NCBI RefSeq assembly: GCF_030818935.1
Contig: NZ_JAUTBD010000001.1
Span: 1,426,001-1,490,000 of the forward strand
Length of the DNA stretch: 64,000 nucleotides
Direction of reading: 5' to 3'
Source: Microbacterium sp. SORGH_AS_1204
GTDB taxonomy: Bacteria; Actinomycetota; Actinomycetes; Actinomycetales; Microbacteriaceae
The notes under the pieces were generated by a model that saw only the letters and a list, made by a program, of their open reading frames with translations, did not search any database and had not been told where the DNA came from. Positions 46,135 to 60,749 of the stretch are shown in pieces; within the stretch, counting starts at the first letter, position 1, and each line of letters opens with the position of its first letter. Position numbers and translations under genes: made by a program.

Positions 46135-46959
46135 TTACAGCGGTGCCGGACGCGGACCATGCGGATCTAGTTCACCCGAACGCTCGAAAAGACCCAGGTC
46201 TGCGCGGCGATCCGTCCACATGCGCTGGTCGCGGCGGACCTCGTCGACGACAGCGGAGTCGATGTCGACGACCGCCAGGCCTTCGCGCCCGTCGACGGCG
46301 GTGACGCGATGGCCGAGCGGGTCGAAGACGGCCGAGCCGCCGATGAACCCGCTGGGGGCTCCGACCAGCCCGCTGTAGACGACGTACATGCTGTTGTCGA
46401 GGGCGCGCGCAGCCAGGTGAAGGTCGCGTCGGCGTTCTCCGCCCGGGAAATACGCTCCGCTGTTCAGGTAGACCGTGGCTCCGGCGGTGGCGGCTGTCGC
46501 GGCGTGCTCGGGAAAATTCGCGTCGTAACAGACGGACAGGGCGAGGTCGACGTCGCCGAGCCGGAACGAGTACCCGCCCGCGCCCGGGGTGAAGAGCTCG
46601 CGCTCGGAAGCATAGAGGTGTTGCTTGGCATAGGCGGGCAGCGGGGGCCTGCCGGGGGCGATGACGAGGTCGGTCAGCGTGCGGTGCGCGCCTCGCTGAA
46701 GTGCGGTGTTCACGACGGCGATGACGCGGGTTTCGTCGACGGCGTCCTGCAGGGGGCTGAGCCACCCGAGATCGTCGAGGCGCGGCAGGACGCCGGCGAA
46801 GACGGTGTCGTCATAGCCGGTGAGGAAAGCCTCGGGGAAGAGGATGACGTTCGCACCGGCGGTCGCGCTGTCGCCGACGTAGCGCGCAGCCTGAGCGACG
46901 TTGCGGCCGATGGCGCCGGGGACGGCCTCGGCCTGCACGGTGGCGATGCGGACGGTCAC
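46135..46959 (-). CDS. carbon-nitrogen hydrolase (nitrilase superfamily)
   Basis: 274-residue amidase/nitrilase-like enzyme. The Glu-Lys-Cys triad is visible: FPEAFLTGYDD (Glu about 43), YAKQHLY (Lys) and SVCYDANFPEHA (Cys), with the C-terminal VDIDSAVVDEVRR. The substrate is unknown. The start is GTG 46959 (TVRIATVQAEAVPG), which lies inside the first copy of a 32-bp tandem array; its GTG overlaps the stop of the mini-ORF in the next copy. No ribosome site is visible. A single gene otherwise. Confidence 0.88.
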   Translation of the reverse strand: MTVRIATVQAEAVPGAIGRNVAQAARYVGDSATAGANVILFPEAFLTGYDDTVFAGVLPRLDDLGWLSPLQDAVDETRVIAVVNTALQRGAHRTLTDLVIAPGRPPLPAYAKQHLYASERELFTPGAGGYSFRLGDVDLALSVCYDANFPEHAATAATAGATVYLNSGAYFPGGERRRDLHLAARALDNSMYVVYSGLVGAPSGFIGGSAVFDPLGHRVTAVDGREGLAVVDIDSAVVDEVRRDQRMWTDRRADLGLFERSGELDPHGPRPAPL

Positions 46960-47142
46960 GGAATCAGTGTGGCAGGGGCGTGGACGGTCACGGAATCGGT
47001 GTGGCGGGGGCGTGGACGGTCACGGAATCGGTGTGGCGGGGGCGTGGACGGTCACGGAATCGGTGTGGCGGGGGCGTGGACGGTCATGGAATCGGTGTGG
47101 CGGGGGCGTGGATGGTCGCGAAATCGGTGTGGCGGGGGCGCG
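46951..47142 (-). repeat. 32-bp tandem array (6 copies) covering the CN-hydrolase start
   Basis: Six direct copies with unit GACGGTCACGGAATCGGTGT plus GGCGGGGGCGTG on the + strand. Copies 2-4 are identical, copies 1 and 5 differ at one or two bases, copy 6 is degenerate. Units abut with no spacers, so this is not CRISPR. Read on the minus strand, copies 5 to 2 each encode an 11-residue ORF (start at 47087, 47055, 47023, 46991) whose TGA overlaps the next start as GTGA, the last overlapping GTG 46959. Confidence 0.9.
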
Positions 47143-48980: not shown

Positions 48981-49444
48981 CGGATGGGCCGTGTTCTGTA
49001 GAGCGGGGCGTCGCGGTATCCGGGTGTCCGGCGCCTCTGCGGATGGTTCACATTCCGTCGGGCGGGTGTCGCGGTCTCCGGGTGTTCGGCATGTCAGTGG
49101 ATGGTTCACGTCTCGTCGGGCGGGGGTGCCGTGGCATCCGGGTGTTCGGCGCCTCTGCGGATCGTTCACGCCCGGTAGGGCGGGGCGCCGTGGCATCCGG
49201 GTGTCCGGCGCCTCTGCGGATGGTTCACATTCCGTCGGGCGGGGTGCCGTGGCATCCGGGAGGCCCGCGGTTCAGCGGATGGGCCACGCTCCGTCGAGCG
49301 GGGCGTCGCGGTATCCGGGTGTCCGGCGCCTCTGCGGATGGCTCACATTCCGTCGGGCGGGGGTGCCATGGCATCCGGGTGTCCCGCGGTTCAGCGGATG
49401 GGCCACGCTCCGTCGAGCGGGGGAGCCGTGGCATCCAGGCGTCC
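48981..49444. repeat. 58-60-bp degenerate tandem array (8 copies) covering the exonuclease 3' end
   Basis: Eight contiguous copies beginning CGGATGG, most with GTGGCATCCGGGTGT in the middle. Two flavours occur: one with GGGCCACGCTCCGTCGAGCG and one with GGTTCACATTCCGTCGGGCG. The last copy contains the final 15 or so codons and the stop of the exonuclease gene (TGA at 49391-49393), so the array looks like repeated copying of the gene's tail. Remaining copies contain no credible ORF. Confidence 0.9.
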
Positions 49445-50125
49445 GATCTTGACGAAGTACTCGGTCAGACTCGCGGCTTGAGCGCGGGCCCACGCGATCT
49501 GGCGGGTGTGGAGTTCGTCGAGGGTGGGTGGCATCCACGGTCCGAACTTCTCGGCGAGGGCCAGGGCCACGCGGCCGGCGGCCACCGCGTCGGCGCAGGC
49601 TTCGTGCGCGGCGTCGAGCGAGACCGCGTAATGCTCGGCGACGACCGACAGGGTGCGCTTGCCGCGACGATAGCGGTCGTAGGTCTTGTCGACGACGAGC
49701 GGGTCGATGACGGGAGAGGGCGCGTGGATCGGTGCCACGCCGTGACGCACGGCCTCGTTCTTGAGCATCGAGAAGTCGAAGGGCGCGTTGTACGCCACGA
49801 CGGGAATGCCGGCGGCGAACAACGCCCCCAACGCCTCGACGACTTCGGCGACCACACGAGGCGCCGGAGCGCCGTCGGCGCGCGCCCGCTCCGTCGAGAT
49901 GCCGTGAATGGCGGCGGCGCCGGCCGGGATCTCGACGCCGGGATCGGCCAGCCAATCGCGCGCGTCGACCACGTTGCCGTCGGCGTCGAGCACGCCCACG
50001 TGGGCTGAGACGATGCGATCGTTCTCGACGTCGATTCCGGTCGTCTCGAGGTCGAACACGCCGACGAGGCGCGCCCAATCGGGCGTCTGGAAGAGGGGGA
50101 GCGGCTCGGCCTGCCACGTGGTCAT
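49391..50125 (-). CDS. DEDDh 3'-5' exonuclease (DnaQ-like)
   Basis: 244-residue exonuclease of the DNA polymerase III epsilon family. Exo I VFDLETTGID, HGIS, Exo II YNAPFDF and Exo III HEACADA carry the DEDDh residues. It is stand-alone, probably for DNA repair or RNA trimming. ATG 50125 is chosen because TACGGT lies 6 nt upstream (leaderless) and the longer frame is Pro/His-rich repeat sequence. The C-terminal RLDATAPPLDGAWPIR is encoded by the last copy of the adjoining array. Confidence 0.88.
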   Translation of the reverse strand: MTTWQAEPLPLFQTPDWARLVGVFDLETTGIDVENDRIVSAHVGVLDADGNVVDARDWLADPGVEIPAGAAAIHGISTERARADGAPAPRVVAEVVEALGALFAAGIPVVAYNAPFDFSMLKNEAVRHGVAPIHAPSPVIDPLVVDKTYDRYRRGKRTLSVVAEHYAVSLDAAHEACADAVAAGRVALALAEKFGPWMPPTLDELHTRQIAWARAQAASLTEYFVKIGRLDATAPPLDGAWPIR

Positions 50126-50403: not shown

Positions 50404-50659
50404 TGAGGTGAGGCGTAGGGAGATGGGAACCGTATGCGGGGGTGTGGCGCCCGCGCGGGGGAGGGGTGGGGTGCGCGGAACCGCCCAGAACGGGGGTGAA
50501 CGCGCGCGGTGAACACGTGGAAGGGGGCGAGCAGTTGCAGGGGCTGGATGCCGGGGTGCAGGACGATCGCGCGCTGAAACGGCGGTGTTCGCCGGGACGG
50601 GACACCCGCTAGCGACCGCGGGAGGCCGTGAGCGCAGGAGATTCGGGCGGTTGCGGACA
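50404..50659. other. intergenic, no gene seen
   Basis: 256 bp of GC-rich sequence without a supported gene; all long frames here are shadows with Arg/Pro/Gly-rich translations. Confidence 0.35.
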
Positions 50660-50920
50660 CGGCCCACCGGCGACGCGACGGGGAGGGCGCGACCGGCACG
50701 CGGCATCCTCCGCTCCGCCGATCTCCTGCGTTGCGGGCCCGGCCCACCGGCGACGCGACGGGGGAGGGCACGACCGGCACGTGGCATCCTCCGTTCCGTC
50801 GGTCTCTTGCGTTGCGCGCCCGGTCCACCGGCGACGCGACGGGGAGGGTGCGACCGGCACGTGGCATCCTCCGTTCCGTCGGTCTCCTATGTTGCGGGCC
50901 CGGCCCACCGGCGAGGCGCC
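50660..50920. repeat. 80-81-bp tandem array (3 copies plus partial)
   Basis: Copies begin CGGCCCACCGGCGACGCGAC at 50660, 50740, 50821 and 50901 (partial). Each full unit contains GGCATCCTCCG. Copies are about 90 percent identical. The last partial copy ends about 30 bp before the promoter of the next gene. Confidence 0.88.
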
Positions 50921-52666: not shown

Positions 52667-53659
52667 ATGACCACGTCGTCCGTCACCCTTCCGCGCTCCA
52701 CCCGCCACGGCTCTGGAGCCGTCACCGGCCTCCTCATCGCCGTCGCTTCCGCGCTGGCGTTCTCGTCGAGCGGCCCGTTCGTCAAGCCGCTGCTCGACGG
52801 CGGCTGGTCGCTCGGCACGGTGCTGCTCGTACGCATGAGCTGCGCCGCGCTCCTGCTCTCACCCGCGCTGATCATCGCCATCCGGCGTCAACCCGGATTC
52901 CTGCGTCGCCACGGCCTGCTCATCGTCGCGTTCGGTCTCACCGCCGTCGCCGGATGCCAGCTGTTCTACTTCGCCGCCATGCAGCGGATGCCGGTGGCCG
53001 TGGCCCTGCTCATCCAGTACATCGCCCCTGTGCTCATCGTCATCGCCGTGTGGGCGCGTACACGGCGCGCACCGTCGAAGGCGGTGCTGATCGGCTCGGT
53101 CGTCGCCATGGCGGGCCTCGTGCTCGTCGTCGACATCAGCGGCGCCCGCTTCGACCTGCTCGGGACCGTGTTCGCCCTGTGCGCCGCAGTGTGCGCCGCC
53201 GCCTACTTCGTCATCGCCGGCCGCGCCGGAGACGACCTCCCCCCGCTCGCCCTCGCCTCCGGCGGCCTGCTCATCGGCGCCCTGGTCATGGGAGTGCTCG
53301 TGGGCACCGGCATCCTGCCCTTCGCCGCCCCTTCGATCACCGTGTCGCTCGCGGGCTTCGAGGTTCCCGGCATCCTGCCCCTGCTCTGGGTGGGTGCGGT
53401 CGCGACGACCCTCGGCTACGCGCTCGGCGTCATCGCCGTGCCGCTGATCGGGTCGCGCCTGGCCTCGTTCGTCGGACTCAGCGAGGTGCTTTTCGCCCTC
53501 GGTTTCGCCTGGTTGCTGCTGGGTGAGACCCCCGCGCCGGTCCAGTTCGTGGGCGGCGCGCTGATCCTCGCGGGCGTGGTGCTGGTGAAGATGGATGCCG
53601 GCAGCCCGGCCGAACAGAAGACCGAGACGGCGAGCATCCCGGTGGTGCCGGCGCCGTAG
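52667..53659 (+). CDS. EamA/DMT-family exporter
   Basis: 330 residues with ten transmembrane helices in two EamA halves (first GLLIAVASALAFSSSGPFVK, second LLGTVFALCAAVCAAAYFVIA), ending after GVVLVKMD. Drug/metabolite transporter superfamily; probable efflux of an amino acid, metabolite or toxin, substrate not predictable. ATG 52667; the ribosome site is weak (GCAGG). Divergent CGNR regulator with shared operator. Confidence 0.9.
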   Translation: MTTSSVTLPRSTRHGSGAVTGLLIAVASALAFSSSGPFVKPLLDGGWSLGTVLLVRMSCAALLLSPALIIAIRRQPGFLRRHGLLIVAFGLTAVAGCQLFYFAAMQRMPVAVALLIQYIAPVLIVIAVWARTRRAPSKAVLIGSVVAMAGLVLVVDISGARFDLLGTVFALCAAVCAAAYFVIAGRAGDDLPPLALASGGLLIGALVMGVLVGTGILPFAAPSITVSLAGFEVPGILPLLWVGAVATTLGYALGVIAVPLIGSRLASFVGLSEVLFALGFAWLLLGETPAPVQFVGGALILAGVVLVKMDAGSPAEQKTETASIPVVPAP

Positions 53660-53689
53660 AGTCGCGGCGCCCCCGTGGTCGAGCGGGCG

Positions 53690-54240
53690 TCCGCGCGTGC
53701 ACAACGGCAGGGGAAACGGGCGACACGCCGGGGGTGGAGACCGTGTGGCGGCGTGTCGCGCGAAAGTCCTGCGGTTGTGTCCGGGATGCCGCTGGCGCCG
53801 TCGGGCCTCGTCAACGGCCGCTGCCCGTGCACAGCGGCGGAGGGAAGGGGCGACACCCCGGGGGCGGAGACCGTGTGGCGGCGTGTCGCGGGAAAGTCCT
53901 GCGGTTGTGTCCGGGATGCCGCTGGCGCGGCCGGGTCTCGTCAACGGCCGCTGGTCGTGCACCTCGGCTGTCGGCTGTGCACAACGGCAGGTAAAGGGGC
54001 CGACACGCGGCGGCTATGCGCCGGGCGGCGGCGTGTTGCGGGAAAGTCCTGCGGTTGTGTCCGCGGTGCCGCTGGCGCCGCCGGGCGTCATCGACGGCCG
54101 CTGCCCGTGCACAACGGCTGCCGGCTGTGCACAACGGCAGGAAAAGGGGCCGACACGCCGCGGCTGTGCGCAGGGCGGCGCCGTGTCGCGGAAACGTCCT
54201 GCGGTTGTGTCCAGGATGCCGCTGACGCCGAGCCGCGGTG
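53690..54240. repeat. 130-150-bp tandem array (4 copies) with conserved hairpin element
   Basis: Four copies of a long unit; the phrase GTCCTGCGGTTGTGTCC recurs at 53766, 53896, 54046 and 54196 (periods 130, 150, 150; the later ones gained about 20 bp). Each unit has GTGCAC-N19-GACACGCC-N20-GGCGTGTC (first at 53697-53757) with small changes and most have a GGATGCCGCTG phrase. No gene is supported in this 634-bp gap between EamA and Lrp genes. Confidence 0.9.
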
Positions 54241-54293
54241 TGAGCAGTGACGTGCTTAGCGATCCGGCACCGGCCCGTCGGTGGAGGAGGCCG

Positions 54294-54767
54294 CTACACG
54301 CCGTCGCGCGCCAGCTCCATCAGCGGGCCGACGCGATACCCGATCACCTCGCCCATGACGAGCGACGTCTCGGTGCGCTCCACGCCCTCGATCGCGAGGA
54401 TCCGGGCGTCGGTGTCGAACAGATGCTGCGTGTCGCGGCAGGCGACGCGCACCAGCAGGTCGACCTGACCGCTCAGGCCGTGCGCCTGCAGCACCTCGGG
54501 CACCTTCGCCAGGTCTTCGCGGATCGCCGGCAGCTCCGCCTGGCGCACTGTGACCTGCAGGAACGCCTCGATCGGAAACCCCAGCGCCTCGGCCGACAGC
54601 GTGCGCTCGAACGAGAGGAAGACGCCCCCGCGCTCGAGGCGGCTCATGCGCGCCTGGACGGTGTTGCGCGAGAGTCCGAGCTTCTCGGCGAGCGCGACGA
54701 CGGTGGCGCGCGGATCGGCGGACAGGGCGCGGAGGAGGTCGAGGTCGACCGCGTCGAGCTTGCTCAT
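54294..54767 (-). CDS. Lrp/AsnC-family regulator
   Basis: 157-residue DNA-binding regulator: winged helix-turn-helix (LDAVDLDLLRALSADPRATV, GLSRNTVQARMSRLE) and a RAM/ligand domain (GFPIEAFLQVTV, RVACRDTQHLFD). Divergent from the branched-chain 2-oxoacid dehydrogenase genes, like BkdR, so it probably responds to branched-chain amino acids. ATG 54767 is preferred; TAATGT lies 8 nt upstream. ATG 54779 is an alternative inside the -10. Confidence 0.9.
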   Translation of the reverse strand: MSKLDAVDLDLLRALSADPRATVVALAEKLGLSRNTVQARMSRLERGGVFLSFERTLSAEALGFPIEAFLQVTVRQAELPAIREDLAKVPEVLQAHGLSGQVDLLVRVACRDTQHLFDTDARILAIEGVERTETSLVMGEVIGYRVGPLMELARDGV

Positions 54768-54813
54768 GATGCGAAACATTAGCAGCGTCGAGACCGAGCG
54801 CAATGGGCACTGT

Positions 54814-54840
54814 GCTCAACATGACGTCGAGGTCTTGAGC
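54814..54840. promoter_or_regulatory. inverted repeat, candidate Lrp site
   Basis: GCTCAA and TTGAGC arms 15 nt apart in the 176-bp region between the Lrp gene and bkdA. Spacing is compatible with an Lrp dimer site; inference only. Confidence 0.3.
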
Positions 54841-54943
54841 GGGGTGCGTTCCGAGCGTACCGTCGCGCGTGTCGGCACCGCAGCCGACGCCCGGACCGCC
54901 GCGGCTCTCAAAAGGAACCCCGGCCGCACCTGGAGGGATGACG

Positions 54944-56065
54944 ATGACGTACACCCAGACCTCGCCGGATCACGGAGCCGCGAACCCCGCCGGCGACGTG
55001 GCCGACGCCGCCCGAGTGCTCGAGCCCGACGGCACACGCGTGCCCGACGCGGCGCTCGACCCGTGGATCGCCGACCTCTCGCCCCACGATCTGCGCGCCC
55101 TGCACCGCGACATGGTCCTGACCCGTCGAGTGGATGCCGAGGGCGTCGCCCTGCAACGCCAGGGTCAGCTCGCGCTGTGGGCACCCTGCCGCGGACAGGA
55201 GGCCGTGCAGGTCGGAACCGCCCACGCGCTCGCCCCCGGCGACTTCGTGTTCCCGAGCTACCGCGAGCACGGCGTGCTGCTCGGCCGCGGCGCACGACCC
55301 GCCGACTACGTGCTCGCCTGGCGCGGCGAGGAGCACTCGGCCTACGACCACACGACCATCAACGCCGCTCCTCCCCAGATCATCATCGGCGCGCAGTCTC
55401 TGCACGCGACCGGCTGGGCGATGGGTGCTCAGCGCGACGGCTCCACCGACGTCGCCGTCGCCTACTACGGCGACGGTGCCACCAGCCAGGGCGACGTCAA
55501 CGAGGCGATGGTGTTCGCCTCGTCGTTCCGGGCCCCGGTCGTGTTCGTCTGCTCGAACAACCAGTGGGCGATCTCCGAGCCCGTCACCGTCCAGGCGAAA
55601 CACCCGATCGCGGGCCGAGCGCCGGGTTTCGGCATCCCCAGCATGCGCATCGACGGCAATGACGCCCTCGCCTGCGTCGCCGCGATGCGGTGGGCGCTCG
55701 ACCGCGCCCGCCGCAACGAGGGTCCTTCGTTCATCGAGGCGGTGACCTACCGGATGGGACCGCACACCACCAGCGACGATCCGACCCGTTACCGCGATGC
55801 CGACGAGGTCGAAGCATGGACGAGGCGCGACCCGATCGCGCGCCTCGAGGCGTACCTGCGCGCCGAGGGGATCCTCGACGACTCGGGACTGGCCGAGGTC
55901 GCCCGTGCCGCCGACGCGCTCGCCGCCGAGGTGCGCGCCGCGTGCATCGGTGCGACCACGCGCGATCCCGCGACGATGTTCGACCACGTGTACGCCGAAC
56001 CGCACGGTCCGCTCGAGAGACAGAAGGCGGAGTACGTGGAGTACCTGGCGGGGTTCGAGAAATGA
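54944..56065 (+). CDS. bkdA: branched-chain 2-oxoacid dehydrogenase E1 alpha
   Basis: Thiamine-diphosphate decarboxylase subunit alpha, 373 residues. TPP motif GDGATSQGDVNEA with the NN of CSNNQWAISEP, phosphorylation-loop-like TYRMGPHTTSDDPTRYR, and RQGQLALWAPCRGQEA. Annotated in relatives as PdhA or BkdA; the divergent Lrp gene and following methylcrotonyl-CoA carboxylase genes, similar to the mycobacterial bkdABC-accA1-accD1 region, favour the branched-chain role. GGAGG is 7 nt before ATG 54944 and only 1 nt before ATG 54938, so 54944 is chosen. Confidence 0.88.
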   Translation: MTYTQTSPDHGAANPAGDVADAARVLEPDGTRVPDAALDPWIADLSPHDLRALHRDMVLTRRVDAEGVALQRQGQLALWAPCRGQEAVQVGTAHALAPGDFVFPSYREHGVLLGRGARPADYVLAWRGEEHSAYDHTTINAAPPQIIIGAQSLHATGWAMGAQRDGSTDVAVAYYGDGATSQGDVNEAMVFASSFRAPVVFVCSNNQWAISEPVTVQAKHPIAGRAPGFGIPSMRIDGNDALACVAAMRWALDRARRNEGPSFIEAVTYRMGPHTTSDDPTRYRDADEVEAWTRRDPIARLEAYLRAEGILDDSGLAEVARAADALAAEVRAACIGATTRDPATMFDHVYAEPHGPLERQKAEYVEYLAGFEK

Positions 56066-56142
56066 CCGCGCTGACACTTCGCGCGGCGCAGGCTGCCGGC
56101 CGGCCGGGCACCCGCGGGATCGACGAGGGGGTCTCGCGATGA
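56062..56142 (+). CDS. 26-codon mini-ORF copying the E1beta N-terminus
   Basis: ATG 56062 overlaps the E1alpha stop (ATGA) and the TGA at 56140-56142 overlaps the E1beta ATG (ATGA). The peptide starts MTALTLRAAQAAG, while E1beta starts MTALTLGAAINAG; the DNA is likewise nearly identical over about 24 bp. It looks like a tandem duplication of the E1beta start kept as a coupling ORF. It may do nothing beyond letting ribosomes pass from E1alpha to E1beta. Confidence 0.55.
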   Translation: MTALTLRAAQAAGRPGTRGIDEGVSR

Positions 56143-57173
56143 CCGCGCTCACGCTCGGCGCCGCGATCAACGCCGGCCTGTCGAAGGCCCTCGAGACCGA
56201 CGACAAAGTGCTGATCATGGGCGAGGACATCGGCAAGCTCGGCGGCGTCTTCCGCGTGACCGACGGCCTGCAGCAGCGCTTCGGCGCACAGCGCGTCGTC
56301 GACACCCCGCTCGCGGAAGCCGGCATCGTCGGCACCGCCGTGGGTCTCGCGCTCCGCGGCTACCGGCCGGTCGTCGAGATCCAGTTCGACGGCTTCGTCT
56401 ACCCCGCCTTCGATCAGATCGTCTGCCAGGTCGCCAAGCTCCACTACCGCAGCAACGGGCGGATCCGGATGCCGTTGGTCATCCGCATCCCGTGGGCCGG
56501 GGGTGTCGGAGCGGCCGAGCATCACTCCGAATCGCCCGAGGCCTACTTCGTGCACACCGCCGGCCTCCGCGTCGTCGCCGCCAGCACCCCCCAGGACGCC
56601 TACGTCATGCTGCAGCAGGCCGTGGCATCCGATGATCCCGTCATCTTCTTCGAGCCCAAGCGCCTCTATCACGCGAAGGGCGAGGTCGATCTGGATGCCG
56701 ACCTCGCCGACGCCCCGCCGATGCACCTCGCCCGCGTCGCCCGCGAGGGCACCGACGCCACGATCGTGACCTACGGTGCGCAGGTGCGGACGGCTCTGGA
56801 CGCCGCGCTCGCCGCGGAAGACGAGGGGCTCTCGCTCGAGGTCATCGACCTGCGTTCGCTCTCACCGATCGACATGAACACGGTCGCGGCATCCGTCCGC
56901 AAGACCGGGCGCGTCGTAGTGACCCATGAGGCCGCCCGCGAGGCGGGGGTGGGGGCGGAGCTCGTCGCGAGCATCACCGAGCAGTGCTTCGAGTACCTCG
57001 AGGCGCCGCCGCAGCGCGTCACCGGGCACGACATCCCCTACCCGCCGTCGAAGCTCGAGAAGCATCACGTGCCGGATCTCGATCGGATCCTCTTCGCGGT
57101 CGACCGTGTGGTGGAGCGCGGGACGGCTCCCTCGGCGGCGAGCGCGGCGGCGATCGAGGGAGGCGTCCGATGA
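56139..57173 (+). CDS. bkdB: branched-chain 2-oxoacid dehydrogenase E1 beta
   Basis: Beta subunit of the E1 decarboxylase, 344 residues, transketolase-like pyrimidine domain plus C-terminal domain. Motifs: VLIMGEDIGKLGGVFRVT, DTPLAEAGIVGTAVGLA, EIQFDGFVYPAFDQI, HHSESPEAYF, and DLRSLSPIDMNTV. Starts at ATG 56139, coupled to the mini-ORF; the TGA overlaps the E2 ATG. Confidence 0.92.
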   Translation: MTALTLGAAINAGLSKALETDDKVLIMGEDIGKLGGVFRVTDGLQQRFGAQRVVDTPLAEAGIVGTAVGLALRGYRPVVEIQFDGFVYPAFDQIVCQVAKLHYRSNGRIRMPLVIRIPWAGGVGAAEHHSESPEAYFVHTAGLRVVAASTPQDAYVMLQQAVASDDPVIFFEPKRLYHAKGEVDLDADLADAPPMHLARVAREGTDATIVTYGAQVRTALDAALAAEDEGLSLEVIDLRSLSPIDMNTVAASVRKTGRVVVTHEAAREAGVGAELVASITEQCFEYLEAPPQRVTGHDIPYPPSKLEKHHVPDLDRILFAVDRVVERGTAPSAASAAAIEGGVR

Positions 57174-58996
57174 TCGCGGAGTTCCTGCTTCCCGACCTCG
57201 GCGAGGGGCTTCCCGAGGCCGAGATTGTGCAGTGGCACGTGGCCGAGGGCGACGACGTCACCCTCAACCAGACCATCGCCGAGGTCGAGACGGCCAAGGC
57301 CATCGTCGAGATCCCCTCGCCGTACACGGGGACCGTGCAGGGACTGCACGCCGCCGCGGGCGACGTCGTCGCGGTCGGATCGCCGTTGGTGTCGTTCGCG
57401 GTGGAGGGGGCGGATGCCGTGAGCGCGGCGCCCGCGGGAACGGCCGAGGCAGCAGCGGGCAAGGCCGAGGCGGAGACGGGGGAGCCCGCTACGGGCTCGA
57501 CCCAACGTCCTGCGGAGTTCCGTTCCGACGCGTCCCGGCTGGAGACCGCCGAGGCGCAGCCCGGCGCGGGCGTGGCGCGTGGCGCGGCCGAGGTGCATGG
57601 CGCGGGCGTGGTGCATGGCGCGGGCGTGGTGCATGGCGCGGGCGTGGTGCGTGGTGCGGCCGAGGCGCAGCCCGGCGCGGGCGTGCGTGGCGCGGGCGTG
57701 GTGCGTGGCGCGGCCGAGGTGCATGGCGCGGGCGTGCGTGGTGCGGTCGAGGCGCGTGGCACGGCCGAGGGGCGTGGTGGCCCCGACGGTCGCACGACGG
57801 CGTCGGCAGCGGGCGACCTGGAACGCGCCACGCCCAACCTCGTCGGATACGGCGCGGCGCCCGCGTCGGGGAGCCGACCCCGGCGACGCGCGCGCTACAG
57901 CGGCACCGCGGTCGTCGAGAGCGACCACGCCGTGCGCGAAGCGGCACCCCACGATGTGCTGCACACCGGACCGATCGAGATACCGGGGGAGCGTCCCCGG
58001 TCCACCCCGCCCGTGCGCAAACTCGCGAAAGACCTCGGCATCGACCTCGTGCTCGTCGCCGCGGCCCATCCCGGAGAGGCGGTGACCCGCGCGCACGTCG
58101 AGGAGTTCGCGTCGCGTGAGCCCGCGGCATCCGGTGTCTCTTCGCAGACGTCGGAGGGCCGCCCGACGGCGAGGGATGTGTCCTCTTCCGCATCGACGGT
58201 CGGCCCGATGGAGGCCCGGCCGTTCTCTCCTTCCGCGTCGACGGTCCCCCCGGCCGTGCCCGCAACGCCGCTCCGGCCCGGTCAGGACCGCGCCGCGCGC
58301 GTCACGCGGACGCCGATCCGCGGCGTGCGCAAGCACACGGCGGCGGCGATGGTGCGCAGTGCCTTCACCGCTCCGCACGCGACGACCTTCCTGACGGTCG
58401 ACGTGACCGCGACGACCGAGCTGCTGGCATCCCTGAAGTCCGATCGAGCCCTCGACGGGCACAGGATCGGGGTGCTCGCGATCGTCGCGAAGGCGGTGTG
58501 CCTCGCGCTCGGGCGTACTCCCGCGCTGAATGCGGAATGGGACGACGCGGCGGGCGAGATCGTCGCGCACCACTACGTCAACCTGGGCATCGCCGCGGCA
58601 ACCGAGCGCGGGCTGGTGGTGCCCGTCATCGCGGACGCCGACGCCCTGCCGCTCGTCGACCTCGCCGACGCGATCGCCGATCTCGCCGCGACCGCCCGCG
58701 CAGGACGCACCGCTCCCTCCGCCATGACCGGTGGAACGTTCACGATCACCAACGTGGGCGTGTTCGGAGTGGATGCCGGCACGCCCATCCTCAACCCCGG
58801 TGAGGCCGGAATCCTCGCCGTCGGCGCCGTACGCCGTACGCCGTGGGAGCACGACGGCGACATCGCCCTGCGCGATGTGCTCACCCTCAGCCTCTCGTTC
58901 GACCACCGGCTGGTCGACGGTGCCGAGGCGGCGCGTTTCCTCACCGACGTGGCCGGGGTGCTGCGCGAACCCGGGAGGGCCATGCTGCTGCGCTGA
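57170..58996 (+). CDS. bkdC: dihydrolipoamide acyltransferase E2 with expanded linker
   Basis: Core acyltransferase of the 2-oxoacid dehydrogenase complex. 608 residues: lipoyl domain (1-80) with the lipoylated K43 in EVETAKAIVEI; a very long low-complexity linker (about 85-235) made of GAGVVH/GAAEV-type repeats encoded by 18-bp units; subunit-binding domain RSTPPVRKLAKDLGID; second Ser-rich linker; catalytic domain from TRTPIRGVRK to SFDHRLVDGAEAARFL with the active-site histidine. E2 of this class is usually about 430-520 residues, so the linker is expanded. E3 is not adjacent. Confidence 0.9.
   Translation: MIAEFLLPDLGEGLPEAEIVQWHVAEGDDVTLNQTIAEVETAKAIVEIPSPYTGTVQGLHAAAGDVVAVGSPLVSFAVEGADAVSAAPAGTAEAAAGKAEAETGEPATGSTQRPAEFRSDASRLETAEAQPGAGVARGAAEVHGAGVVHGAGVVHGAGVVRGAAEAQPGAGVRGAGVVRGAAEVHGAGVRGAVEARGTAEGRGGPDGRTTASAAGDLERATPNLVGYGAAPASGSRPRRRARYSGTAVVESDHAVREAAPHDVLHTGPIEIPGERPRSTPPVRKLAKDLGIDLVLVAAAHPGEAVTRAHVEEFASREPAASGVSSQTSEGRPTARDVSSSASTVGPMEARPFSPSASTVPPAVPATPLRPGQDRAARVTRTPIRGVRKHTAAAMVRSAFTAPHATTFLTVDVTATTELLASLKSDRALDGHRIGVLAIVAKAVCLALGRTPALNAEWDDAAGEIVAHHYVNLGIAAATERGLVVPVIADADALPLVDLADAIADLAATARAGRTAPSAMTGGTFTITNVGVFGVDAGTPILNPGEAGILAVGAVRRTPWEHDGDIALRDVLTLSLSFDHRLVDGAEAARFLTDVAGVLREPGRAMLLR
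57580..57772 (+). repeat. 18-bp coding repeats in the E2 linker
   Basis: Units such as GGCGCGGGCGTGGTGCAT (GAGVVH) repeat several times, mixed with related GCGGCCGAGG units. Multiples of 18 bp keep the frame. Confidence 0.85.
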
Positions 58997-59210
58997 ATCG
59001 CGGCGTCGGGCCCCGGCTACGCGGCGCGGCTCGAGGCCGGCGCGGACCGGGTGCCGGGGGAGTGGTCGCCCTCGGCACCTTTCCGCCGGACGGCGTTACG
59101 GGGGGTCTCAAAGACCCGGACCGTGGCTCCGGGGCCGGAACCCGCTCGGCGCCGCCGGCGCGAGCGGACCGCTCGGTCCAGACGGCGGAAGGGGATGTTC
59201 CCCCGCCCCG
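58997..59210. other. intergenic between convergent E2 and TetR genes
   Basis: 214 bp with no supported gene. Short hairpins (for example GGGTCTCAAAGACCC near 59103-59117) may serve as a terminator. Confidence 0.4.
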
Positions 59211-60749
59211 TCACGCCGTCAGGGCGGCCAGCGCCATGCGCGCCAGGGCGGGGCGCACGCGCGCTGCCGGAACGCCGCGGACACTGTGCGGTGTGGAGTT
59301 GATGAGCCCGAAGCAGGCCAGCGCCCGCACGCGGCGTTCGGCCGGGGTCTCGGCATCCGGGAACGCAGTGGCGAGGGCGTCGGTCCACACGGTGACGTAG
59401 GCGTTCTGCAGGCGCCGGACGGTGCGACGGTCGGCGTCGGAGAGGCGGTCGAGGTCGCGGTCCTGCACGCGGATGACGTCGGCTTCGGCGAGCGCGAAGG
59501 CGACGTGGAAGTCGACCAGCGCGCGCAGCACGGCATCCGGGTTCTCGGGACCGTCGGGGAGGGATGCCGTGTGTGCACTGCTGCGGGGGTTGTCGGCGAC
59601 ACGCCGGTCGCGGGTGGCCTGGGACGGCGTGTCGTCGTGGATGTCTGCCCTTGTGCTCGTGTCGCGGGGGTGGCCGGCGATGTTCGGGGCGAGTGCGTCG
59701 GGGTGTGGCGGCGGTGCGGGGGCGGATGCCGTGTGTGCACGGCTGCGGGAGTTGTCGGCGACACGCCGGTCGCGGGTGGTCTGAGACGGCGTGTCGTCGT
59801 GGATGTCCGCCGTTGTGCTCGTGTCGCGGGGGTGGCCGGCGGTGTTGGGGGCGAGTGCGTCGGGGTGTGGCGGCGGTGCGGGGGCGGATGCCGTGCGTGC
59901 ACGGCTGCGGGAGTTGTCGGCGACACGCCGGTCACGGGTGGCCTGGGACGGCGTGTCGTCGTGAATGTCTGCCCTTGTGCTCGTGTCGACGGGGTGGCCG
60001 GCGATGTTCGGGGCGAGTGCGTCGGGGTGTGGCGGCGGTGCGGGGGCGGATGCCGTGTGTGCACAGCTGCGGGAGTTGTCGGCGACACGCCGGTCGCGGG
60101 CGGCCTGGGACGGCGTGTCGGCGAACACGTCTGCCGTTGTGCTCGCGGCGACGGCGCGCCCACCCCGCAGCAACCGCTCGCTGACGTCGACGAGGATCGC
60201 GCCGAGCAGCGCCTGCTTGCTCGCGACGTGCCGGTAGACGGCGGGGCCGCTCACCCCGGCCGCTTCGCCGATGTCGCCGAGGGTCACGCCGTCGAACCCG
60301 CGCTCGGCGAACAGACGCGCGGCGGCGGCGAGCAGCGCCGTGCGGCGCTCCGCCTTGGCGCGGTCGCGTGCGGTGCCGGCGGGGGTCGGTGCCGGCGTCG
60401 CACTGGGACGCGCCGGGCCGGTCCCCGTTCGCGGGTCGTGGCCGGCTTCCGCCTGGGGCGCGTGGCCGGCGCCCGGCACGGGCTCCCCGCCGGTGCCCGT
60501 CCGGCGCGCGTGGCCGGCGCTCGGCGGAGACTCCCCGCCGGTGCCCGTTCGGGGCGCGCGGTCGGTGCTCGGCGGAGGCTCCCCGCCGGCCCCCGGCACG
60601 GGCTCCCCACCGGTGCCCGTTCGGGGCGCGTGGCCGGCGCCCGCTCCAGGCTCCCCACCGGTGCCCGTTCGGGGCGCGTGGCCGGCGCCCGCTCCAGGCT
60701 CCCCGCCGGTGCCCGTCCGGGGCTTTTCGTTGGCTCTTGTCATCGGCAT
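59211..60749 (-). CDS. TetR-family regulator with two internal repeat expansions
   Basis: 512 residues, over twice the usual 190-220. Residues 1-125 are a Pro/Gly/Thr-rich tail built of 16-residue APRTGTGGEP-type repeats. Residues 130-180 are a TetR helix-turn-helix (RRTALLAAAARLFAERGFDG, GEAAGVSGPAVYRHV). Residues about 203-395 are three and a half copies of a 54-residue unit (RDRRVADNSR to DIHDDTPSQAT) inserted before the ligand domain (PENPDAVLRALVDFHVAFAL to the end). The divergent gene is methylcrotonyl-CoA carboxylase beta with a palindrome between. ATG 60749 or 60743. The frame is intact despite the insertions. Confidence 0.82.
   Translation of the reverse strand: MPMTRANEKPRTGTGGEPGAGAGHAPRTGTGGEPGAGAGHAPRTGTGGEPVPGAGGEPPPSTDRAPRTGTGGESPPSAGHARRTGTGGEPVPGAGHAPQAEAGHDPRTGTGPARPSATPAPTPAGTARDRAKAERRTALLAAAARLFAERGFDGVTLGDIGEAAGVSGPAVYRHVASKQALLGAILVDVSERLLRGGRAVAASTTADVFADTPSQAARDRRVADNSRSCAHTASAPAPPPHPDALAPNIAGHPVDTSTRADIHDDTPSQATRDRRVADNSRSRARTASAPAPPPHPDALAPNTAGHPRDTSTTADIHDDTPSQTTRDRRVADNSRSRAHTASAPAPPPHPDALAPNIAGHPRDTSTRADIHDDTPSQATRDRRVADNPRSSAHTASLPDGPENPDAVLRALVDFHVAFALAEADVIRVQDRDLDRLSDADRRTVRRLQNAYVTVWTDALATAFPDAETPAERRVRALACFGLINSTPHSVRGVPAARVRPALARMALAALTA
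59572..60130 (-). repeat. 162-bp in-frame coding repeat (3.4 copies) in the TetR gene
   Basis: TGTGCAC-type landmark at 59572, 59734, 59896 and 60058: exact 162-bp period (54 codons). Each copy contains GTGCAC-N19-GACACGCC-N20-GGCGTGTC; the first three full units also carry GCGGATGCCGTG. Copies differ by only a few bases. Confidence 0.92.
60421..60720 (-). repeat. 48-bp coding repeats in the TetR N-terminal tail
   Basis: Units beginning GTGCCCGTTCGGGGCGCGTG at 60493, 60541, 60613, 60661 and (partial) 60709; 48 bp equals 16 codons. A shorter 24-bp variant (CCCCCGGCACGGGCTCCCC) is interspersed. In frame throughout. Confidence 0.88.

Follow-up and report, generated by a model that had tools for sequence, protein, structure and literature searches.

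An 86-bp mirror-symmetric repeat family in Microbacterium and its pairing with putative winged-helix nucleases

A 64,000-nucleotide stretch of the Microbacterium sp. SORGH_AS_1204 chromosome (contig NZ_JAUTBD010000001.1, positions 1,426,001 to 1,490,000; below, the window) carries two groups of short repeats, one lying between two convergent genes and the other inside the reading frame of a putative regulator gene. An earlier note on this DNA had described their shared unit as a 61-bp hairpin element and had proposed a family of small palindromic elements. Here we describe the element as an 86-bp dyad, follow it through this genome and related ones, and examine its pairing with a family of putative nucleases. 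The genes and dyads concerned are listed below; dyads are given without strand, and their mismatches to the 86-bp consensus are counted out of 48 (ORF, open reading frame; G and L numbers denote genomes and loci).

52667..53659, + strand: upstream gene of the convergent pair, an ORF (gene-finder score 137) ending 37 bp before element 1, which by its look we take to be an EamA/DMT-type transporter
53697..53782: dyad element 1 of the intergenic array, 3 of 48 mismatches
53827..53912: dyad element 2 of the intergenic array, 6 of 48 mismatches
53977..54062: dyad element 3 of the intergenic array, 5 of 48 mismatches
54127..54212: dyad element 4 of the intergenic array, 4 of 48 mismatches
54294..54767, - strand: downstream gene of the convergent pair, an ORF whose orthologues served for the empty-site comparison; presumably an Lrp/AsnC-type regulator
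59211..60749, - strand: 512-aa ORF, start codon uncertain, with four in-frame elements; its TetR-family name is the label of the earlier note, which we adopt by its look
59573..59658: dyad copy 1 of the TetR gene, 6 of 48 mismatches
59735..59820: dyad copy 2 of the TetR gene, 6 of 48 mismatches
59897..59982: dyad copy 3 of the TetR gene, 6 of 48 mismatches
60059..60144: dyad copy 4 of the TetR gene, 4 of 48 mismatches

Architecture and distribution of the 86-bp dyad

The motif first described, GTGCAC-N19-GACACGCC-N20-GGCGTGTC, is present at 53697-53757, and altered copies start at 53827, 53977 and 54127 (spacing 130, 150 and 150). The four copies reported within a 162-bp unit of the TetR gene are likewise real, their starts lying one base later than had been stated. 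The size of 61 bp did not hold: the actual unit is an 86-bp dyad in which a half-site, GTGCACAACGGCAG-N10-CGACACGCCG, faces its mirror half-site across an N18 centre. Each half-site has an outer and an inner arm, and the shared positions that had been noticed within the N19 segments are in part the outer arm, AACGGCAG.

Further copies were found when the genome was scanned, as the earlier note had proposed. The exact inner core, CGACACGCCG-N{4,30}-CGGCGTGTCG, occurs 16 times in the whole genome, with a spacer of 18 in 14 cases and of 19 in two, and not once in a backwards control; half-sites with at most two mismatches number 39 plus 40 (control, 0). Within the stretches fetched from this genome, and with gaps of 4-13 permitted, the gap inside the half-site was 10 in 83 of 89 rows, 9 in five and 5 in one. 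The 86-bp consensus gave 42 non-overlapping matches in the same stretches, as against none in 20 block-shuffled sets, and 36 of the 42 had fewer than 10 of 48 mismatches. The spacing is thus far above chance, the lengths of centre and spacer being constant while their letters are free. Neither outcome that the earlier note had named as refuting it, a lack of other copies in the genome or spacing at a chance rate, was thus observed. The 36 aligned elements start with GTGCAC, GTGCAT, GTGCGC, GAGCAC or GGGCAC and finish with the mirror or near-mirror. Dyad loci are scattered across the 3.7-Mb chromosome, outside both arrays of the window as well as within them, and the 42 dyads form 16 clusters, with 38 dyads in clusters of at least two. 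The repeats of the window belong to a family of mirror-symmetric elements, each of 86 bases, that extends over the genome, as had been surmised. A search of the whole window against Rfam gave no match at gathering score. Both the clustering and the abundance of tandem repeats in the window would suit passive minisatellites, with the palindrome present in them by accident. Against such an origin stand the dispersal of the element, its fixed geometry across genera and its match to dyads beside an enzyme (below), and the dyad scans of nuclease loci contradict it; we give it next to no probability.

Beyond this genome, the inner core, again with a loop of about 18, was found, among the matches listed, in many Microbacteriaceae and in other Micrococcales (Isoptericola, Demequina, Haematomicrobium); the comparisons of outer arms in this paragraph refer to the same matches. 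A scan of the collection for the inner core gave at least 118 stretches, of which 80 were taken as named loci. The outer arm differs from species to species, yet it is mirror-symmetric again in each: agreement of a left outer arm was 0.69 with the right arm of the same element and 0.44 with those from other genomes (123 elements, 69 genomes). Outer arms of different loci agreed at 0.78 within a genome and at 0.51 between genomes, a contrast that none of 500 label shuffles reached (L061, L066, L074, L111, L119 and L129 were left out). Core matches in an Oscillospiraceae, a Streptomyces, a Pantoea, an Undibacterium and a Chloroflexi record look like chance, their arms not being symmetric. A variant layout was seen in Isoptericola (L079, L110, L115, L122) and Haematomicrobium (L075, L096, L099, L101), in which the outer arm abuts the same inner core with no N10.

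Placement, folding and insertion into a coding gene

By a simple gene finder, nine of the 14 intergenic loci inspected in this genome (L010-L022 and the window array) lie between convergent genes. The same preference was seen across the 80 named loci (among the matches listed), with 34 convergent, 30 codirectional and six divergent placements out of 70, compared with 104, 290 and 104 among 498 background pairs of adjacent genes; a further two elements fell within predicted genes, and for 12 a neighbour was missing on one side. This count retained five of the loci left out of the outer-arm comparison: L111 (codirectional), L119 (inside a gene) and L061, L066 and L074 (neighbourless on one side). 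Elements typically stand some tens of bases 3' of stop codons.

Such a location, together with the excess of convergent placements, is what one would expect of transcription terminators or 3' mRNA hairpins shared by convergent genes, and single strands of the element fold better than all shuffles in seven of eight tests. Compensatory change is absent within the genome, however: in 36 elements, one pair was altered on both sides compared with 3.8 in shuffles, and pairing was no higher than in shuffled elements (6 of the 42 matches were left out for a length shift or a broken partner). The hairpin is thus not supported as a conserved feature. Nor would terminators be expected to have a loop and spacer fixed in length and free in sequence, or to occur four times within the TetR reading frame. 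The four array elements lack a T-tract, the sole match in 53600-54350 (53621-53643) lying off the elements, and the pairing with nucleases would be left unexplained. We therefore consider the terminator explanation improbable. The sequence of each half-site is conserved, as would suit a protein bound to double-stranded DNA, and the dyad is probably read as a double strand rather than as a hairpin. Between species both arms do change together (among the matches listed), which, with the folding of the single strands, leaves some probability to a hairpin route.

Comparison with relatives shows how the two arrays of the window differ between genomes. Most of the more distant Microbacterium orthologues of the TetR gene are open frames of about 199-212 aa, and in two orthologues (L262, L269) the codons for SERLL and FHV are separated by 90 bp. 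The same interval measures 681 bp with four elements in this genome, 342 bp with one exact core in G417, and 231 bp in G413, with the core at one mismatch and the outer arm decayed. In G421, which has no nuclease match (below), it measures 192 bp with an apparent remnant, and the frame is open in all four. In G403 it is 246 bp without a recognisable element. The TetR copies are thus, by comparison of these genes, an in-frame insertion, as the earlier note had held. The N-terminal tail of the TetR ORF, rich in proline and glycine, is encoded by separate 24/48-bp repeats (60437-60723), and distant orthologues are short and lack it.

In this genome the convergent interval that holds the window array spans 634 bp and contains four elements; in G452 (Microbacterium enclense NIO-1002) it spans about 220 bp and contains a single one. 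It is about 30 bp in G417, 21 bp in G421, 32 bp in G404 and 23 bp in G414, is absent in G425, and measures 89 bp in G413 and 251 bp in G403, both without a core. L011, a second convergent site, holds one element in this genome, overlapping matches suggest two in G452 and G417, and the matches of G421, G413, G403, G404, G414 and G425 bypass the element. The elements are dispersed; at orthologous sites they are present in some genomes and absent from others, and they have multiplied in tandem.

A nuclease family beside the dyads

Clustering of the genes beside 75 dyad loci (the five loci named in the placement count were left out) gave one family in which all four members lie within 134 bp of an element, among the matches listed. 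The same clustering gave a three-member alcohol-dehydrogenase-type cluster with all three members near elements. A tblastn search with the protein of this genome found the nuclease at seven of the 118 core loci (among the matches listed). In Microbacterium sp. oral taxon 186 the nuclease has a dyad with different arms on each side. The earlier note had looked instead to a transposase of the TnpA-REP type as partner; Y1_Tnp (PF01797) has no match in this genome, whereas 5 of 14 control genomes were positive (other transposase families were not searched). In this genome the nuclease has four paralogues at 30-38% identity; two further matches, both weak and partial, came from a profile search. 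Each of the four paralogues adjoins inverted repeats of a different sequence, most clearly so L165 and L167:

C1:798798-799622: nuclease gene of this genome, outside the window, with three elements on one side and one degenerate element on the other
L165, 1375-1460 and 2440-2519: dyads beside a paralogue, differing from the window type
L167, 1120-1226 and 1386-1464: dyads beside a paralogue, differing from the window type

Half-sites with the motif of the L167 paralogue number 18 in this genome (control, 0), and 12 of these lie away from the paralogue's own gene.

The N-terminus of the protein resembles AbiEi antitoxins: L082 matches Pfam AbiEi_4 at 32.1 bits (cut-off 25), and the protein of this genome (20.1) and L087 (16.5) fall below the cut-off. 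The C-terminal part matches DUF559/MTES_1575, for which Pfam gives either an unknown function or a restriction-type nuclease. A structural model of L087, predicted from seven sequences (mean pLDDT 73; residues 1-6, 78-115 and 220-222 below 50), assigns residues 9-44 to a winged helix and 177-270 to a nuclease fold. A Foldseek search with this model gave nothing at E 0.001 or better, the best hits being 3hrl, a putative endonuclease-like protein (0.0079), and I-Bth0305I (3r3p; 0.026). VIA-align gave Z 10.7 over 95 residues (2.7 A) for I-Bth0305I, 10.3 for 3hrl and 8.9 for Vsr (1vsr). Rows below Z 8 were disregarded, except that for AbiEi (6y8q), which reached 4.0 over winged-helix residues 4-47. 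The PDB searched by sequence profile had no match for the nuclease and NCBIfam nothing meaningful; PHROGs gave only weak matches of unknown function, and PADLOC weak AbiEi matches (best E 0.0004).

In the numbering of this genome's protein, E177, Q194, D204 and D230 are present in all of 101 nucleases and H221 in 97; E177, D204, H221 and D230 are candidates for the E, D, H and D of the EDxHD pattern. The retention of these presumed catalytic residues in nearly all copies argues for an active enzyme. C62, H81, H101 and C126, kept in 99-100 of the 101, suggest a metal site in the middle region. The partner is thus a probable DNA-cutting enzyme, predicted to consist of an AbiEi-like winged helix, a C/H/H/C middle and a nuclease domain of the Vsr/EDxHD type.

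The nuclease family is present in 75 of 98 genomes searched. For the dyad scans, 94 loci were collected without regard to the repeats (5 from this genome, 29 returned, and 60 chosen by score and spread); the set of 101 comprises these and seven loci found through the core pattern, with one duplicate (L056 = L178). A scan assuming neither motif nor geometry found 64 dyads within 400 bp of the gene at the 94 loci, with at least one at 47 loci and dyads on both sides at 14, as opposed to two dyads in far flanks of double length, none inside genes and one in shuffled DNA. The mean pairing profile was similar whatever the sequence, with an unpaired centre, an inner arm from about 9 bases out and an outer arm at about 27-42. 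A fixed-geometry scan (score at least 18) found a dyad within about 380 bp at 61 of the 94 loci and on both sides at 29; near positions stood about 20-fold above far flanks, a count that includes the seven loci found through the core. The left and right dyads of one nuclease agreed at 0.82 and those of different nucleases at 0.44, and an agreement of at least 0.6 was reached by 28 of 29 same-nuclease pairs versus 48 of 812 different-nuclease pairs. Dyad similarity followed protein identity, with rho 0.38 at 68 loci and 0.32 at the 61 unselected ones (0 of 500 permutations each), being about 0.8 above 70% identity and about 0.43 below 45%.

The same association was seen between genomes. Among 59 Microbacterium genomes, the exact core was present in 14 of 17 with a nuclease match of at least 250 bits (mean 5.9 copies), a cut set after viewing the list, compared with 2 of 17 at 186-249 bits and 7 of 25 with a weaker or no match (one to three copies each), or 9 of 42 together (Fisher p 2e-5). 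G418 has 12 cores at 212 bits, two of which flank its nuclease; G481, outside the genus, has one core. Outside the order, the nuclease of L329 (G772) has matching palindromes on both sides, at about 1329 and 2449 (GATCGTACTGACCCGTAT). Among the weakest phylum-level nuclease loci, 17 of 24 scanned had no dyad near. At one weak nuclease match, L339 (G506), two near-identical perfect palindromes of a different repeat type lie around the gene, at about 770 and 1802. The pairing and co-change of dyad and nuclease are well supported.

We then considered which part of the protein reads which part of the dyad. Across 21 nucleases of the core clade (25 loci less L130, L178, L196 and L206), inner arms agreed at 0.93 and outer arms at 0.59; the clade was picked by its core, so that the constancy of the inner arm is partly a matter of selection. 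Similarity of the outer arm followed residues 8-46, 47-110 and 111-172 (rho 0.24-0.28; 0 to 2 of 500 permutations), whereas it did not track the nuclease domain (rho 0.02; 179 of 500). From this we infer that the front of the protein, winged helix and middle, reads the outer arm; the conserved nuclease end may read the inner arm.

Among 29 core-clade loci, 13 share one upstream neighbour of the nuclease gene and 15 one downstream neighbour, by their look presumably of the pstB and chorismate-lyase types, and seven occupy another place (own genome included). Outer arms differ widely at the place shared with these neighbours, so that the specificity of the nuclease seems to change in situ. Fixation of nuclease loci over many species might also be expected if the system were domesticated, the nuclease serving mainly as a host regulator or chromosome organiser bound to the dyads that lie at gene ends and beside its own gene, with spread slow or past. 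AbiEi antitoxins bind their own promoter, and dyads lie upstream of the nuclease gene at 48 of 101 loci; moreover, no copy of the nuclease was found in plasmid records by protein search, nor in phage records. Downstream dyads are as common (52 of 101), however, the catalytic residues are almost invariant in the 101 proteins, copy numbers vary between close species, and elements occur inside a coding gene, all of which makes domestication unlikely in our estimate.

A role in defence, in which incoming DNA is the target of the nuclease while the dyads of the chromosome serve as decoys or mark it as self, would accord with the weak defence-library matches of the AbiEi-like N-terminus and with the several different nuclease-dyad pairs per genome. 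Viral contigs have no exact core, though, the phage records gave no DNA or array match either, and the shared neighbours of the nuclease gene look like housekeeping genes; we judge defence very improbable.

A proposed repeat-and-enzyme system

We propose that the elements serve the chromosomal nuclease at C1:798798-799622 as cognate DNA sites and are at the same time its non-autonomous repeats, and put the probability of this explanation, with its model of cutting and spread by repair, at roughly 0.6. A protein dimer or tetramer would read the double-stranded dyad, its winged helix and middle reading the variable outer arm and its nuclease end perhaps the constant inner arm. The two nuclease domains would meet over the 18-bp spacer, fixed in length and free in sequence, and cut there. 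The break would then be repaired from another copy, giving conversion, tandem multiplication and occasional copying to new places, and copies would survive mainly after stop codons, where they are least harmful. Cutting within N18 and spread by repair would, in our view, be the most likely course; the binding mode and division of labour are suggested by the statistics above.

Several observations weigh against this proposal. The exact window-type half-site (at most two mismatches) is present in only 6 of 398 family genomes, this one included; among the other five, G089 has eight, in a variant form, and four have single matches, and several of these genomes probably carry it by chance. No dyad reached the threshold at 33 of the 94 nuclease loci, and the repeats beside the paralogues L164 and L166 are less clear than those beside the other two. 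Three genomes (G403, G450, G402) have a close nuclease and no exact core, G421 has two cores and no nuclease match, and G460, outside the genus, has five exact cores and no match to the nuclease family; the cores of G460 may have a different partner. In non-core clades the two blocks of the half-site tend to be the same motif, 18-19 bp apart, which is at odds with a simple split of outer arm to helix and inner arm to nuclease. The nuclease sits at few fixed places over many species, so that the gene itself is not hopping. Finally, the flanks of element-free sites could not be aligned to the single base, and no target-site duplication or exact insertion boundary was readable at the three sites compared with relatives.

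REPINs are described as inverted pairs of short repeats that are mostly extragenic and also form tandem clusters, each distinct RAYT enzyme lying beside its own repeats and co-evolving with them (PMC3116915, PMC8266576). The dyads, too, are inverted doublets dispersed in extragenic space and gathered in tandem clusters, the TetR copies excepted, and distinct nucleases adjoin and co-change with their own dyads, apart from the 33 loci without one. In contrast to REPIN-RAYT systems, this genome lacks a Y1 HuH transposase, the enzyme being of the winged-helix and Vsr/EDxHD type; the dyad is 86 bp long, built of four blocks, and has no GTAG or CGTC tag at the ends of the 36 aligned elements; and the want of compensatory change makes reading as double strand probable. 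The system works like REPIN-RAYT and is not a member of it.

The predicted fold of the catalytic domain is shared with Vsr and with EDxHD homing endonucleases such as I-Bth0305I, which is described as forming a dimer on a target of almost 60 bp (PMC3943268). In contrast to those enzymes, the nuclease has its gene between complete dyads, many such sites occur on the chromosome, and no intron or intein was seen. Since complete dyads flank the gene on both sides at 29 of 94 loci, the dyad is not interrupted by the gene. With the defining transposase missing, and with the fold as the trait that it has in common with EDxHD homing enzymes, we file the system with neither group. About 40 N-terminal residues resemble AbiEi antitoxin in their winged helix (weak matches), which here is fused to a nuclease domain, unlike in the antitoxin. 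Rickettsia palindromic elements insert in frame into protein genes, and the parallel that the earlier note drew with them holds for in-frame insertion alone: the present element lies mostly outside genes, has a proposed enzyme partner and comes from a different phylum.

In the excerpts of open-access PubMed Central literature consulted, no paper linked DUF559/AbiEi-type nucleases with palindromic repeats, and none described such repeats in Microbacterium. The whole looks like an undescribed repeat-and-enzyme system able to insert into genes. To our knowledge, REPIN-RAYT is the principal example of bacterial repeats whose population is linked to a single-copy enzyme. More tentatively, at slightly under even odds, we suggest an independent counterpart to it with an unrelated enzyme: a large family of actinobacterial winged-helix nucleases of the EDxHD/Vsr type, each driving its own 86-bp dyads through cutting in N18. 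Recognition would change in situ between species, with no change in geometry or, in one clade, in the inner arm, and each genome would hold several distinct pairs. If true, this second case, with unrelated parts, would show that repeat-enzyme pairings arise repeatedly, and part of the DUF559/MTES_1575 proteins would acquire a role. Several different pairs per cell provide a setting in which to ask why such pairings persist, and the family offers many natural nucleases with matched long sites, whose winged-helix specificity may be readable from sequence alone.

Beside the dyads, the window seems rich in minisatellites. An 18/54-bp minisatellite (57563-57777) lies within the ORF 57170-58996, presumably an E2-type acyltransferase by its look, and further tandem arrays, with periods of 32, 59 and 80 bp, occupy 46950-47140, 49003-49445 and 50650-50918.

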